From a virus: DNA of 36,462 nt. Position 1 is the first letter of the stretch, and each line of letters begins with the position of its first letter. The notes under the pieces were generated by a model that did no database searches, had not been told where the DNA came from, and was given only the letters and a program-made list of their open reading frames with translations. The position numbers and the translations under genes were made by a program. Positions 6,424-36,462 of the stretch are shown in pieces. The stretch is from positions 1 through 36,462 of IMG/VR virus record IMGVR_UViG_3300019768_000012; one strand, 5' to 3'.

Positions 6424-6612
6424 TTAATCTACATAACTTTTATTACAACAACTACAATAAGTTATTGCTTGTGTGCTACACTTTTCCATACTGTGATGCT
6501 TTAATATATCTTCGTGGCAGTTAGTGCATATACCGTCTTTAGGTATCCACATGTTCTTATCTTCTTCTATGCAGTGGTGGTATTGGGTTTCTAGTTTAGT
6601 ATATTTAGTCAT
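6424..6612 (-). CDS. small zinc-finger-like protein
   Basis: 62 residues. CTNC near residue 29 and CSCC near residue 54, with several His between, suggest a single treble-clef or zinc-ribbon site. It overlaps the upstream gene by 8 bases and has no clear ribosome binding site of its own, so it probably depends on coupled translation. Function unknown. Confidence 0.6.
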   Translation of the reverse strand: MTKYTKLETQYHHCIEEDKNMWIPKDGICTNCHEDILKHHSMEKCSTQAITYCSCCNKSYVD

Positions 6613-6952
6613 ATTCTTTCATCTCCATAGGTGTCATTAACCTAAATGTAAAATCTGAATTATCTCCATAACCTTCTTCTACATATTCTTTTATAAGTTC
6701 TTCACATTCAAATTCTTTTTCTATTCTGTCTGTAAAAACTTTACCTCCAAGCAATACACAATATTCAACTTCTTGTAACCAACAATTAGCGCAGGTGTCG
6801 TGTTCTCCATTTTCTCTTAATCCAATTCCTTCGCATTTAAAATAATCAAAACACGGATAATTATGAGGGCATTTAAAAAACAACAATTTGCCTCTGTTTA
6901 TCATATTATTTTCTAGTGATTGTTCTTTTAAAACTTTATCTATTCTTTTCAT
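6605..6952 (-). CDS. Cys-rich hypothetical protein
   Basis: 115 residues from the ATG at 6952, placed by AGGAGGGTTAAGT. Cys residues at CPHNYPC, the FKCEG segment and CANC give up to four ligands, suggesting a bound metal or cluster. The C-terminal half is acidic. It lies directly after the HTH regulator gene, so it is an early gene. Confidence 0.6.
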   Translation of the reverse strand: MKRIDKVLKEQSLENNMINRGKLLFFKCPHNYPCFDYFKCEGIGLRENGEHDTCANCWLQEVEYCVLLGGKVFTDRIEKEFECEELIKEYVEEGYGDNSDFTFRLMTPMEMKEYD

Positions 6953-6974
6953 ACTTAACCCTCCTCGTAATGTT

Positions 6975-7193
6975 CTATCCAAAATAAATATTATCTAAAC
7001 TTGCTCCGTACCATTCAACATACATTTTAGCTAGGTTAATTGATAATGACTTATGTCCGTTCTCTACTTGTTTTATTAAGCTAACACTTACGTTAAATTT
7101 GTTTGCTAGTTGACTTTGAGTTAATCTATTATCTTCTCTTATTTTCTTAACTCGTGAACCAACTAAAACGTTCTGTCTTTCTGTTTTATCCAT
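6975..7193 (-). CDS. Cro/C1-type (XRE family) HTH transcriptional regulator
   Basis: 72 residues with a full HTH_3 domain: VKKIREDNRLTQSQLANKF, SVSLIKQVENGHKSL and a closing helix. Known relatives repress or time phage early genes. It is the first gene of the leftward early operon, and its promoter spacer is filled by a TCAC-N5-GTGA palindrome that it may bind. AAGGGCGGTGAACGT precedes the ATG at 7193. Confidence 0.88.
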   Translation of the reverse strand: MDKTERQNVLVGSRVKKIREDNRLTQSQLANKFNVSVSLIKQVENGHKSLSINLAKMYVEWYGASLDNIYFG

Positions 7194-7292: not shown

Positions 7293-7319
7293 TAAAAAAA
7301 CCACCCTGTTAAGAGTGGT
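7293..7319 (-). terminator. terminator downstream of tRNA-Thr
   Basis: On the minus strand, AACCACTC, 6-base loop, GGGTGGTT, then T7. It ends the leftward tRNA transcript before the HTH promoter region. Confidence 0.85.
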
Positions 7320-7363
7320 TAGTTGTACCGAGCATATGACTAAATGTCCGCACCGATACTTGT

Positions 7364-7439
7364 TGGAGCTGAAAATGGGACTCGAACCCATAACCCTCTG
7401 CTTACAAGGCAGTTGCACTTCCATTTGTGCTTTATCAGC
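7364..7439 (-). tRNA. tRNA-Thr (anticodon TGT)
   Basis: 76 nt with CCA encoded. Acceptor GCTGATA/TTTCAGC has one T-T mismatch. The D stem is GCAC/GTGC. The anticodon loop CTTGTAA has a stem of four good pairs plus an A-A mismatch, and the T arm is ATGGG-TTCGAGT-CCCAT. Anticodon TGT reads ACA (Thr). Encoded CCA and mild stem decay are usual for phage tRNAs. It is transcribed leftward from the promoter at 7586-7614 and ends at the terminator at 7293. Confidence 0.9.
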
Positions 7440-7457
7440 ATGTATGCGAACGTCTGT

Positions 7458-7486
7458 TTGACTTATACGCTCGCTTTTGATATAAT
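7458..7486 (+). promoter_or_regulatory. sigma-A promoter, rightward
   Basis: TTGACT (7458-7463), 17 bp, TATAAT (7481-7486). The predicted start is near 7493, and no ORF with a ribosome binding site follows before the terminator at 7613, so the product is likely RNA only. Confidence 0.7.
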
Positions 7487-7585
7487 GTAGGTAACAACTG
7501 AATTAAGTCTCAATACCGCTACCAACGGTTTGAGCAGTTAAACGATACGACCATCGTGAAAAAGTAACTCAATTGCTATATCTCT

Positions 7586-7614
7586 ATTATATAGTATAAG
7601 TGAAAACATTTCAA
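7586..7614 (-). promoter_or_regulatory. sigma-A promoter for tRNA-Thr, leftward
   Basis: On the minus strand, TTGAAA (7609-7614), 17 bp, TATAAT (7586-7591). It fires into the rightward small RNA gene and on to tRNA-Thr, leaving a leader of about 140 nt. Its -35 box overlaps the small RNA's terminator stem. Confidence 0.7.
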
Positions 7615-7642
7615 GCCTTGCGTGTAATCGTGAGGCTTTTTT
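7613..7642 (+). terminator. terminator of the rightward small RNA
   Basis: AAGCCTTGCG, loop TGTAAT, CGTGAGGCTT (ten pairs, two G-T), then a T run. Confidence 0.75.
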
Positions 7643-7644
7643 AT

Positions 7645-7673
7645 TTGGTCGTGAGAGTTAATCACGTTAATAT
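7645..7673 (+). promoter_or_regulatory. possible rightward promoter with palindromic operator
   Basis: TTGGTC (7645-7650), 17 bp, TAATAT (7668-7673). The spacer holds CGTGA-N7-TCACG (7650-7666). The -10 is identical to that of the HTH promoter, and both spacers contain GTGA/TCAC dyads, so one regulator may control both directions. The -35 is weak. Confidence 0.45.
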
Positions 7674-7699: not shown

Positions 7700-7724
7700 A
7701 GTCCGTCAGAAGGACTTTGTTTTT
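7700..7724 (+). terminator. terminator-like hairpin in the rightward leader
   Basis: AGTCC, loop GTCAGAA, GGACT, then TTGTTTTT. A second hairpin (CATACT/AGTATG, 7678-7696) sits just upstream. It may attenuate the rightward transcript or make a very short RNA. Confidence 0.5.
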
Positions 7725-7921
7725 CTTCGATGATCCGTCCTGTTAGCTTTGCTAGGATAGTACAACAATTAACTGTAGTGGTTTAGGTGGTAATGGCAGA
7801 CCGTAGCACCTTTGAGTTGTAAAGCGAATGATCAGTTAACGCTGAAACATTTTTTCTATTCCTTTTATAAGGGATAGTCAGCTCATTTCCTAGTTTCACT
7901 AAAACATTATTAAAACCTTTA
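7725..7921. other. gene-free stretch with several hairpins
   Basis: No ORF with a convincing ribosome binding site on either strand. Seen: TAGC-TTT-GCTA near 7745; a bulged hairpin AATG/TCAG...CTGA/CATT at 7827-7851 followed by a T run, which could terminate rightward transcription; and CTATTCCTT-TTAT-AAGGGATAG at 7856-7877, which has no T tail on either strand. A structured leader or another small RNA is possible. Confidence 0.4.
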
Positions 7922-7972: not shown

Positions 7973-8110
7973 ATGAAGAAGAAAGTTACATATACAGTTA
8001 ATAAAGATACTGCTGAAATGTTCAAATCAGTAGCTGAACAAGAATCATTGAATATGTCTAAGTGGTTAGAAAATCAGATGATTAAGTATATTGAAGAAAA
8101 AACAAAATAA
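7973..8110 (+). CDS. ribbon-helix-helix (Arc/CopG-type) regulator
   Basis: 45 residues. The strand KKKVTYTVNKDTAEMFKSVA and helices around ESLNMSKWLENQMIKYI match the RHH fold, whose N-terminal strand inserts into the major groove as a dimer. AAGGTGGTGATAAC precedes the ATG at 7973. It heads the only rightward operon and faces the HTH gene across the control region, recalling a two-repressor switch; that role is inferred. Confidence 0.8.
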   Translation: MKKKVTYTVNKDTAEMFKSVAEQESLNMSKWLENQMIKYIEEKTK

Positions 8111-8141
8111 TTTATTGGGTAGAGCATTATAGGAGGTAATA

Positions 8142-8393
8142 ATGGATTTATATAAAAAGTATAAACTACAAGTAATAGGAAGTGACGAAATTTTATTACT
8201 TAAAACAGATACTAAGTACCCAGAAGAATTAGCTTATAATCAAACTGGTAAAAAAGTTAAAATTATAGATTTGGTAGTAGTTGATCCTTTTGAATATGAA
8301 CTGGATAAAAAAAGAAAATGTGTTACGTATGACGATTTTAGAGAGTTAGAATCAGCAGTAGAAGCTTATACTAAAAAATGGATGGAATATTAA
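8142..8393 (+). CDS. hypothetical protein
   Basis: 83 residues, ATG at 8142 after AGGAGGTAATA. Mixed strand/helix character with YKLQVIGSDEILLLKTDTKY at the start and a helical, charged C-terminus. It is in an operon with the RHH gene, and its ribosome binding site and spacer are nearly the same as those of the next gene. No family recognised. Confidence 0.65.
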   Translation: MDLYKKYKLQVIGSDEILLLKTDTKYPEELAYNQTGKKVKIIDLVVVDPFEYELDKKRKCVTYDDFRELESAVEAYTKKWMEY

Positions 8394-8407
8394 TAGGAGG
8401 TAATAGG

Positions 8408-8761
8408 ATGAAACAACATATAACAGAGGAACAATTATTAGAATTAAAAGATTTTCAGTTTGTAAGTTTATATAATTTCGTTACGGGTTATAAAAGAAAA
8501 ACAGTTAAAAGTAGTAATGGATATTCTGGATTTTACGGCGGAAAATACAAAGGTTTTGGTTATTGTAATCACGAAAATTTTGTAAAAGGTGTAACTATAG
8601 GTAAGATGATAGAAATATTAAGCTTTTATGAAAGTTCTTATTGTATAAATCATTGCGAAGGCGAGTATTGCATAACGCTTGATAGAGGTATGGGTGGAAT
8701 TGAAATACCTACAAATTGTTTATGCGATGCCTTATGGGAAGCTGTAAAAGAAGTTATTTAA
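8408..8761 (+). CDS. hypothetical protein
   Basis: 117 residues, ATG at 8408 after AGGAGGTAATAGG; an upstream in-frame ATG inside the previous gene is rejected. Rich in Tyr, Gly and Phe in the middle (GYSGFYGGKYKGFGY), with four Cys in ESSYCINHCEGEYC and further Cys near the end, suggesting a metal site. No family recognised. Confidence 0.65.
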   Translation: MKQHITEEQLLELKDFQFVSLYNFVTGYKRKTVKSSNGYSGFYGGKYKGFGYCNHENFVKGVTIGKMIEILSFYESSYCINHCEGEYCITLDRGMGGIEIPTNCLCDALWEAVKEVI

Positions 8762-8793
8762 TAGGTGTATGATAAAGAAAAGGAGTGGTGAGG

Positions 8794-8958
8794 GTGAAGA
8801 TAATTATAGAATGTGAATGCGGAAACAAAGGTATTCTCAAATCAGATACATGTAAAAACTCAATAAATGATGATAAATTTCAATTAGACGAGAACTATGA
8901 TGGATATTCAACAATAGAATGTAAAAAGTGTAAGAATTATATAAATATTAGAGGTTAA
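8794..8958 (+). CDS. small zinc-ribbon protein
   Basis: 54 residues, GTG start at 8794, eight bases after AAGGAG. ECECGNKG at residues 6-13 and ECKKCK at 42-47 form a CxC...CxxC zinc ribbon. It is similar in layout to the protein at 29167-29340 (ECSCGNK ... ECDEC), so the phage carries two related copies on opposite strands. Function unknown; such ribbons often bind nucleic acid. Confidence 0.6.
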   Translation: MKIIIECECGNKGILKSDTCKNSINDDKFQLDENYDGYSTIECKKCKNYINIRG

Positions 8959-8960
8959 AC

Positions 8961-9003
8961 GCAAAACATTTTGCATTGTATTATATTATAACAGTGATAC
9001 AAT
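8961..9003 (+). promoter_or_regulatory. palindromic site 2 and candidate promoter for the methyltransferase-like gene
   Basis: GCAAAACATTTTGC at 8961-8974, then TTGTAT (8976-8981), 16 bp, TACAAT (8998-9003). The 23-bp distance from palindrome to -10 is the same as at 29911-29953. Confidence 0.5.
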
Positions 9004-9038
9004 AAGTATATAAGCTAATTAAGGTTAGCAGTTGGTTA

Positions 9039-9135
9039 TTATGTGTTCTCTTCAATACAGTAACACATAAACAGAGGTTAAGGCATGTCGTGATGATATC
9101 CCCTCTTGCCTCTCTATTATAGGGAGGTTTTTTTT
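9039..9135 (+). promoter_or_regulatory. attenuator-like leader whose terminator contains the ribosome binding site
   Basis: Hairpin 1: TTATGTGTT/AACACATAA at 9039-9070. It holds a nine-codon ORF starting at 9041 that ends at the base of the stem. Hairpin 2: CCTCTCT-ATTAT-AGGGAGG at 9109-9127 followed by T8 (9128-9135), a textbook terminator that ends directly at the ATG at 9136 and buries GGGAGG. AGAGG at 9073-9077 and AGGCA at 9081-9085 can pair with CCTCT or TGCCT and so undo hairpin 2. This is the layout of a riboswitch or attenuator; no known class is recognised. Confidence 0.6.
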
Positions 9136-9831
9136 ATGAAAATTTTAGTAGCATGTGAAGAAAGTCAATCGGTAACAATAGAGTTAAGAAAGTTAGGTCA
9201 CGAAGCATACAGTTGTGACATTATGGAGTGCAGCGGTGGTCATCCAGAGTGGCATATTAAAGGTGATGTTGTTAGATTGCTTAATGGATTTTGCGAATTT
9301 ACAACAATGGATGGTATAAAGCATTTTATAAAAGAAAAATGGGGAATGATTATTGCGTTTCCACCGTGCATTTATTTAACAAATGCAGGAACTAGACATT
9401 ATTCATTAAAATGTAATCCTGTTGAAAAAGTTGAAGCTAGAAAATTGAAAAGAATTGAAGCATTTAATTTTTTTATGTTATTTGCTAATGCTGATTGCGA
9501 TCGTATAGCGATAGAAAATCCAGTTGGATGGGTTAATTCTCAATGGAGAAAGCCGGACCAAATTATTCACCCTTATTATTTTGGAGATGATTTTAAGAAA
9601 AGAACATGTCTTTGGTTAAAAGGATTACCTAAGTTGTTAGATACAAATAGATTGCCGGAACCAGAACCTAAATATATTTGTCAAGGTGAAAAATCAAAAG
9701 GTAAGAAAATTGGTTGGTGTGAAGGCATTAAAGGAACTACTGGAGGTCAAGCTGGACGTTCAAAAGCTAGAAGTAAAACATTTCCAGGAATAGCAAAAGC
9801 AATGGCTGAACAATGGGCAGGAAAAGAATAG
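9136..9831 (+). CDS. C5-cytosine DNA methyltransferase-like protein
   Basis: 231 residues from the ATG at 9136. KILVACEESQSVTIELRKLG resembles the SAM-binding start of the family. Then come DIMECSGG, a motif IV-like AFPPCIYLTN with the expected Cys, ENPVGW as motif VI, and KRTCLWLKGLP as a motif VIII-like block. It lacks a recognisable target-recognition domain and is shorter than typical 5mC enzymes, so target and activity are uncertain. It is last in the rightward operon, with its own palindrome-linked promoter and an attenuator leader. A related protein is at 30002-30703. Confidence 0.7.
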   Translation: MKILVACEESQSVTIELRKLGHEAYSCDIMECSGGHPEWHIKGDVVRLLNGFCEFTTMDGIKHFIKEKWGMIIAFPPCIYLTNAGTRHYSLKCNPVEKVEARKLKRIEAFNFFMLFANADCDRIAIENPVGWVNSQWRKPDQIIHPYYFGDDFKKRTCLWLKGLPKLLDTNRLPEPEPKYICQGEKSKGKKIGWCEGIKGTTGGQAGRSKARSKTFPGIAKAMAEQWAGKE

Positions 9832-36140: not shown

Positions 36141-36462
36141 TCACCGCCTTAACCATTCCATATCCGTTATTACCTCGCCCATTTCTAATGAGTCTTTATA
36201 ATTAAAACTGTTTTTCTTATGCGCCCCTGCAAATTTGAGGAAATCTTTCTTTGATATTTTAACCATTACATTTTCTTTTTCAAATCTCCATTCAACCACT
36301 AACCAATCCATTTTGCATATTTGATGGAACTTTAACCACACCTTTTTACTAGATTGATAAAGGCAATACCCGACCGTTTTATTATGTTCTGATGTTTTAA
36401 CCTCTAAATATATAGGGTTATCGTTCGGATATACCTCGTAGTCTGCTTTTTTATCAAGTTTC
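36141..36462 (-). CDS. partial PD-(D/E)XK-type nuclease-like protein
   Basis: The frame is open to the right edge, so the N-terminus is missing (about 106 residues seen). KADYEV, then PIYLEVKTS about 10 residues later, gives a D...ExK nuclease core as in RecU-like or VRR-type phage nucleases; YQSSKKVWLKFHQI and DWLVVEWRF follow. It could resolve recombination junctions, which is inference. The short reading that starts at 36341 is only a fragment of this gene. Confidence 0.55.
   Translation of the reverse strand, partial: KLDKKADYEVYPNDNPIYLEVKTSEHNKTVGYCLYQSSKKVWLKFHQICKMDWLVVEWRFEKENVMVKISKKDFLKFAGAHKKNSFNYKDSLEMGEVITDMEWLRR

Follow-up and report, generated by a model that had tools for sequence, protein, structure and literature searches.

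Convergent promoters and a predicted RNA antisense to the leader of a phage tRNA-Thr transcript

ColE1 RNA I and RNA II form the plasmid-type cis-antisense pair, and pR and pL of coliphage 186 are face-to-face phage promoters with transcriptional interference. The locus described here lies in a viral record from IMG/VR, of which the whole stretch of 36,462 bases was analysed and is called the window. It consists of two consensus promoters that point at each other, one directed leftward at a tRNA-Thr gene and the other rightward into a predicted short non-coding RNA. As in the ColE1 pair, a short terminated RNA would be complementary to a longer RNA in the folded part at its 5′ end, and the loops on the antisense side are 6-7 nt long; the target here, however, is a pre-tRNA leader rather than a replication primer or an mRNA, and no replication role is indicated. 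As with 186 pR and pL, the promoters are convergent, the predicted transcripts overlap, and the control region lies beside an HTH regulator gene. In contrast to the 186 promoters, both units are non-coding, short and terminated, and neither drives a repressor or integrase gene.

Two further systems involve tRNA transcripts. The 3′ ETS(leuZ) is a spacer of a tRNA precursor that sponges small RNAs (PMC8383071). Here, too, a non-tRNA part of a pre-tRNA is complementary to a small RNA, but it is the 5′ leader, and its complementarity is complete since it is encoded opposite the small RNA, unlike that of 3′ ETS(leuZ). Theta (HDV-like) ribozymes adjoin phage tRNAs (PMC10879173), and the window likewise has a structured element directly beside its phage tRNA. 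A ribozyme of this type at the tRNA 3′ end was rejected: there was no match to the HDV family of Rfam at E values up to 10, and the trailer folds as a plain bulged hairpin, in which inspection by eye showed no second helix for the theta/HDV nested double pseudoknot. In the literature searched, no title or abstract described an antisense RNA dedicated to the leader of a phage tRNA. Antisense pairs and convergent promoters are of a known kind, and their placement on a phage tRNA transcript is somewhat unusual. There is still dispute over the reason for single tRNA genes in phages and over their control; an antisense RNA opposite the tRNA leader, if it is made, would be a direct and testable control point.

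Genome context and the convergent promoters

Nearly all genes of the window are on the minus strand, and they encode, among others, a primase-helicase, a DnaD-like initiator, terminase, portal, major head protein and endolysin. The portal is approximately 33% identical to the portals of Bacillus megaterium Pagevirus phages and mostly 63-91% identical to portals from other IMG/VR contigs, and more distant relatives were found within Bacilli and Clostridia genomes. Because of the Pagevirus matches and these distant relatives, the virus is read as a tailed phage whose host probably belongs to the Bacillota. In another contig of the same phage, L003, window position 36462 is followed, after 204 extra bases (L003 6741-6944), by window position 1. 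Since L003 bridges both ends, the genome is circular or permuted, ~36.7 kb in size, and the window shows it cut open.

The control region lies where the leftward early genes meet a block of rightward genes, and an HTH_3 regulator gene adjoins the promoter region. GC skew is locally reversed at 7-10 kb, over the rightward block (7973-9831), in a genome that is otherwise leftward. Two contigs end inside the control region: that of a related phage, L010, inside the tRNA (window 7425), and that of the same phage, L003, at window 7732. These breaks suggest strain variation or an assembly obstacle there. The elements of the region are as follows.

7299..7320, minus strand: intrinsic terminator of the tRNA transcript (-10.5 kcal/mol)
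7325..7361, minus strand: predicted 3′ trailer hairpin, nearly identical in L010, with an alternative pairing to the leader (fold and comparison)
7364..7439, minus strand: intact tRNA-Thr gene, anticodon UGU, CCA encoded
7440..7579, minus strand: predicted 140-nt leader of the pre-tRNA-Thr transcript (fold)
7445..7474, minus strand: predicted leader hairpin GCGAGCGU/ACGUUCGC just before the tRNA, with an alternative pairing to the trailer (fold)
7458..7486, plus strand: rightward promoter TTGACT-17-TATAAT with an extended -10 TG (TGATATAAT), 11/12 consensus bases
7491..7578, minus strand: predicted three-way-junction domain of the leader, a 14-bp closing stem and two hairpins (z -3.9)
~7493..7645, plus strand: predicted non-coding RNA of ~150 nt, complementary to the tRNA leader (fold and lack of a credible ORF; start placed from the -10 box)
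7586..7614 (read 7614-7586), minus strand: leftward promoter TTGAAA-17-TATAAT of the tRNA-Thr transcript, 11/12 consensus bases
7613..7645, plus strand: intrinsic terminator of the rightward RNA (-13.5 kcal/mol)
7720..7823, plus strand: EGFOA RNA (RF02955), just beyond the plus-strand terminator (52.8 bits; Rfam gathering score 37.7)

An earlier note on this DNA had proposed that the two promoters face each other about 100 bp apart, and they do so at the positions it gave, with 99 bp between the -10 boxes. The predicted starts, ~7493 and ~7579, are 86 bp apart; both were placed from the -10 boxes, and the promoters themselves are consensus matches. The 36-kb window contains a third and last site with 11/12 consensus bases, on the minus strand at 3699-3671; a shuffled window would be expected to have 2.9. 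In terms of arrangement, the window has one pair of convergent 11/12 sites no more than 250 bp apart, against an average of 0.03 such pairs, and never more than 1, in 60 dinucleotide-shuffled windows.

Two ideas about the origin and control of the pair were discarded. That one promoter arose from the other by inverted duplication is not supported, as 15 of 500 shuffles align as well as the two promoter regions. A shared operator, TARCAAYTGARTTA, was considered at both starts, but its two perfect sites there are true by construction, and the remaining sites are only modestly above chance (76 vs 59).

Predicted overlapping RNAs and their folds

The rightward RNA would end at the hairpin AAGCCTTGCG-TGTAAT-CGTGAGGCTT, which is followed by a T run and lies ~125-150 bp downstream of the promoter. 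The starts within it open ORFs of 3, 3 and 8 codons, all without a Shine-Dalgarno site, and the frame of GTG 7600 reads through the terminator. The good terminator and the lack of an ORF that the earlier note had claimed are therefore borne out. Over 87 nt this RNA is complementary to the leftward pre-tRNA-Thr(UGU) transcript, at the 5′ end of the latter, close to the 85 nt or so first put forward; the complementarity is exact, and its length of 87 nt derives from the positions of the two predicted starts. As is typical of cis-antisense RNAs, the predicted RNA thus has, at the level of consensus, its own promoter and terminator on the strand opposite its target, and extended complementarity to it.

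Two hairpins are predicted in the rightward RNA. Hairpin 1, CUCAAuACCG-CUACCAA-CGGUUUGAG at ~7509-7534, is the CTCAA/TTGAG rod with a CTACCAA loop that had been noticed before, and hairpin 2, ACGAU-ACGACC-AUCGU, has a 6-nt loop. Because of these two loops, the likeness to antisense control RNAs that had been suggested is fair. It is the opposite strand, however, that folds better. As a leftward RNA, the overlap (7492-7579, 88 nt) has a fold of -27.2 kcal/mol (z -3.9; 2 of 500 shuffles as good), while as a rightward RNA it reaches -15.5 kcal/mol (z -1.9; 24 of 500). The leader fold gives z scores of -3.6 to -3.9, and the rightward RNA without its terminator -1.9 to -2.3. In the antisense RNA, three G-U pairs of the 14-bp leader stem are replaced by A.C mismatches. 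The structural constraint in these fold models therefore appears to be stronger on the tRNA leader than on the small RNA. The sequence supports, beyond shuffled expectation, an unannotated non-coding transcription unit of ~150 nt opposite this leader, for which antisense control of the tRNA is a more tentative proposal.

Within the leader, the three-way-junction domain extends across the segment that would pair with the small RNA. Its closing stem ends at 7578 and 7491, each no more than 2 nt from a predicted start, and a terminal closing helix of at least 12 bp was found in 29 of 2000 shuffles (1.5%). The overlap stops on the upstream side of the mature tRNA, 53 nt short of it, and this is the sole tRNA transcript of the virus. 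The share of ACA among Thr codons is 41-42% in early and late genes alike, and the late genes have no bias in codon choice that would indicate a codon need for tRNA-Thr.

Possible roles of the overlapping units

The explanation that we favour, tentatively and at a little less than an even chance, is a phage cis-antisense or convergent-promoter switch in which the two overlapping convergent units are mutually antagonistic. The leftward promoter would give pre-tRNA-Thr with its 140-nt folded leader, and the rightward promoter the ~150-nt terminated RNA, the first 87 nt of which would be the exact complement of the folded domain. Polymerase from either promoter would cross the other within 100 bp, and from the promoter geometry alone mutual transcriptional interference may be expected over this distance. 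If both RNAs are made, they should form an 87-bp duplex that would be cut by RNase III. In this way the pair would determine how much tRNA-Thr is made, or would clear the small RNA, where the gene blocks meet. From sequence, we infer that both RNAs are produced and interact, and likewise the direction of control. Since the duplex would lie 53 nt from the mature tRNA, an effect on the tRNA through RNA pairing alone is uncertain. RNase P should free the tRNA whatever the state of the leader, and DNA-level interference or control in the reverse direction is therefore at least as plausible as antisense repression.

The switch is supported by the rarity of the promoter pair, the terminators, the leader fold, the lack of an ORF in the small RNA, the intact tRNA, the orientation boundary and the HTH_3 neighbour. 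Against it stand the lack of a homologue, the break of the closest relative contig, L010, inside the tRNA, the absence of the pair from the complete relative L013/L028, the distance between duplex and mature tRNA, and the fact that the promoters are known as consensus matches.

Control in the reverse direction, from the tRNA transcript to the small RNA, is the basis of an alternative that we consider unlikely. The stable 140-nt leader with its closed 5′ stem, once released by RNase P, would titrate the small RNA, whose real targets would be elsewhere, in host or phage mRNAs. The better fold of the leader strand, with G-U pairs that only this strand can use, agrees with this, and the 3′ ETS of the glyW-cysT-leuZ pre-tRNA, which sponges RyhB and RybB, offers a precedent (PMC8383071). 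The z scores of the folded leader are suggestive of a stable ETS-type spacer that tRNA processing might release. Yet elsewhere in the 36-kb window the small RNA has no further complement of at least 13 nt, and no conserved leader was found in the collections searched. If the leader were the active RNA, the idea of a tRNA-precursor spacer as a sponge would extend to phages.

Comparison with other genomes neither supports nor refutes a function. For 7440-7660 no homologue was found in 50,697 phage records, in 72,556 plasmids or, beyond another contig of the same phage, in IMG/VR. A covariance model of the leader (R1) had no other match in 51 sources or 398 Bacilli genomes, a search whose reach is limited by the single sequence on which the model was built. 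Because no homologue was found, the leader and the small RNA are without covariation support. The neighbouring proteins (HTH at 6975-7193, and those at 6605-6982 and 8378-8761) have homologues only in the same phage or in distant phages that lack the region. An 18-base exact match to the unrelated contigs L002, L004 and L005 is about at chance level for the collection, and near-matches to isrJ, the greA leader, SNORD35, Phe_leader and psRNA6 in Rfam are far below their gathering scores and were also taken as chance.

This confinement to a single species is what would be expected if the leftward tRNA promoter alone were real, and the rightward hexamers and plus-strand folds were by-products of an A+T-rich intergenic region and a folded leader. 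One such promoter pair is expected per ~30 random windows, and the fold of the plus RNA is only moderately better than that of shuffles. A chance origin nevertheless seems improbable to us, as the rightward site has an extended -10 and a spacer of 17 bp, and is matched by a strong terminator downstream.

Elements on either side of the overlap

Downstream of the small RNA, the rightward block starts with the EGFOA RNA, followed by a small RHH-like gene at 7973 and further genes up to 9831. The rightward RNA could thus be the terminated leader of this block, with terminator read-through as the regulated step and the overlap with the tRNA leader secondary. The block is entirely on one strand and downstream of the promoter, and the terminator follows immediately. 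But this terminator is strong, the minimum-energy structure has no alternative antiterminator fold, and a further, weaker terminator-like site is present at 7700-7716, and we regard this explanation as rather improbable. The EGFOA RNA itself is above the cut-off in 10 of 299 Bacilli genomes and had no match in 196 genomes of the class of L043. Most of the EGFOA loci that were fetched have, as read by eye, a serine-recombinase-like ORF no more than 1.5 kb away; none was noticed among the window proteins scanned.

On the other side of the overlap, the leader and trailer segments that flank the tRNA (7440-7475 and 7325-7361) are near-bistable in the fold model. Their duplex has -23.4 kcal/mol, compared with -14.0 +/- 2.7 for shuffled leaders, of which 3 of 1000 are as good. 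When the cloverleaf is enforced, the model gives ~71% local hairpins and ~29% leader-trailer stalk; when it is not, the stalk is the minimum-energy state. The contig of L010, which begins inside the tRNA and so excludes its leader, has the only homologue of the trailer, with 33 of 36 positions invariant. Paired with the window leader, this trailer gives -19.9 kcal/mol, and its local hairpin is not better than shuffles. The conservation of the trailer is only mild evidence, because the two phages are ~85% identical elsewhere. That the tRNA-Thr transcript is both regulatory RNA and tRNA source, its 5′ domain paired off by or titrating the antisense RNA while the tRNA-adjacent segment switches between hairpins and stalk, is very unlikely; the phage would then control one tRNA through RNA structure and antisense together.

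In a complete relative, represented by L013 together with L027 and L028 and carrying a 123-base terminal repeat, the corresponding junction after the lysis genes has tRNA-Phe and tRNA-Pro, and no face-to-face promoter pair is present there. Between these two tRNAs, L028 7300-7390 has by eye the look of a decayed tRNA (CTAGT-CTCCAAA-ACTAG, anticodon CCA), for which ARAGORN made no call. Within the rightward block of the window, a conserved leader precedes a DNA methyltransferase gene (9074-9139, plus strand; L010 186-250). Its hairpin resembles an intrinsic terminator, encloses a likely ribosome-binding GGGAGG and is directly 5′ of the ATG. In L010 this leader, a short way downstream of the tRNA, precedes another gene.
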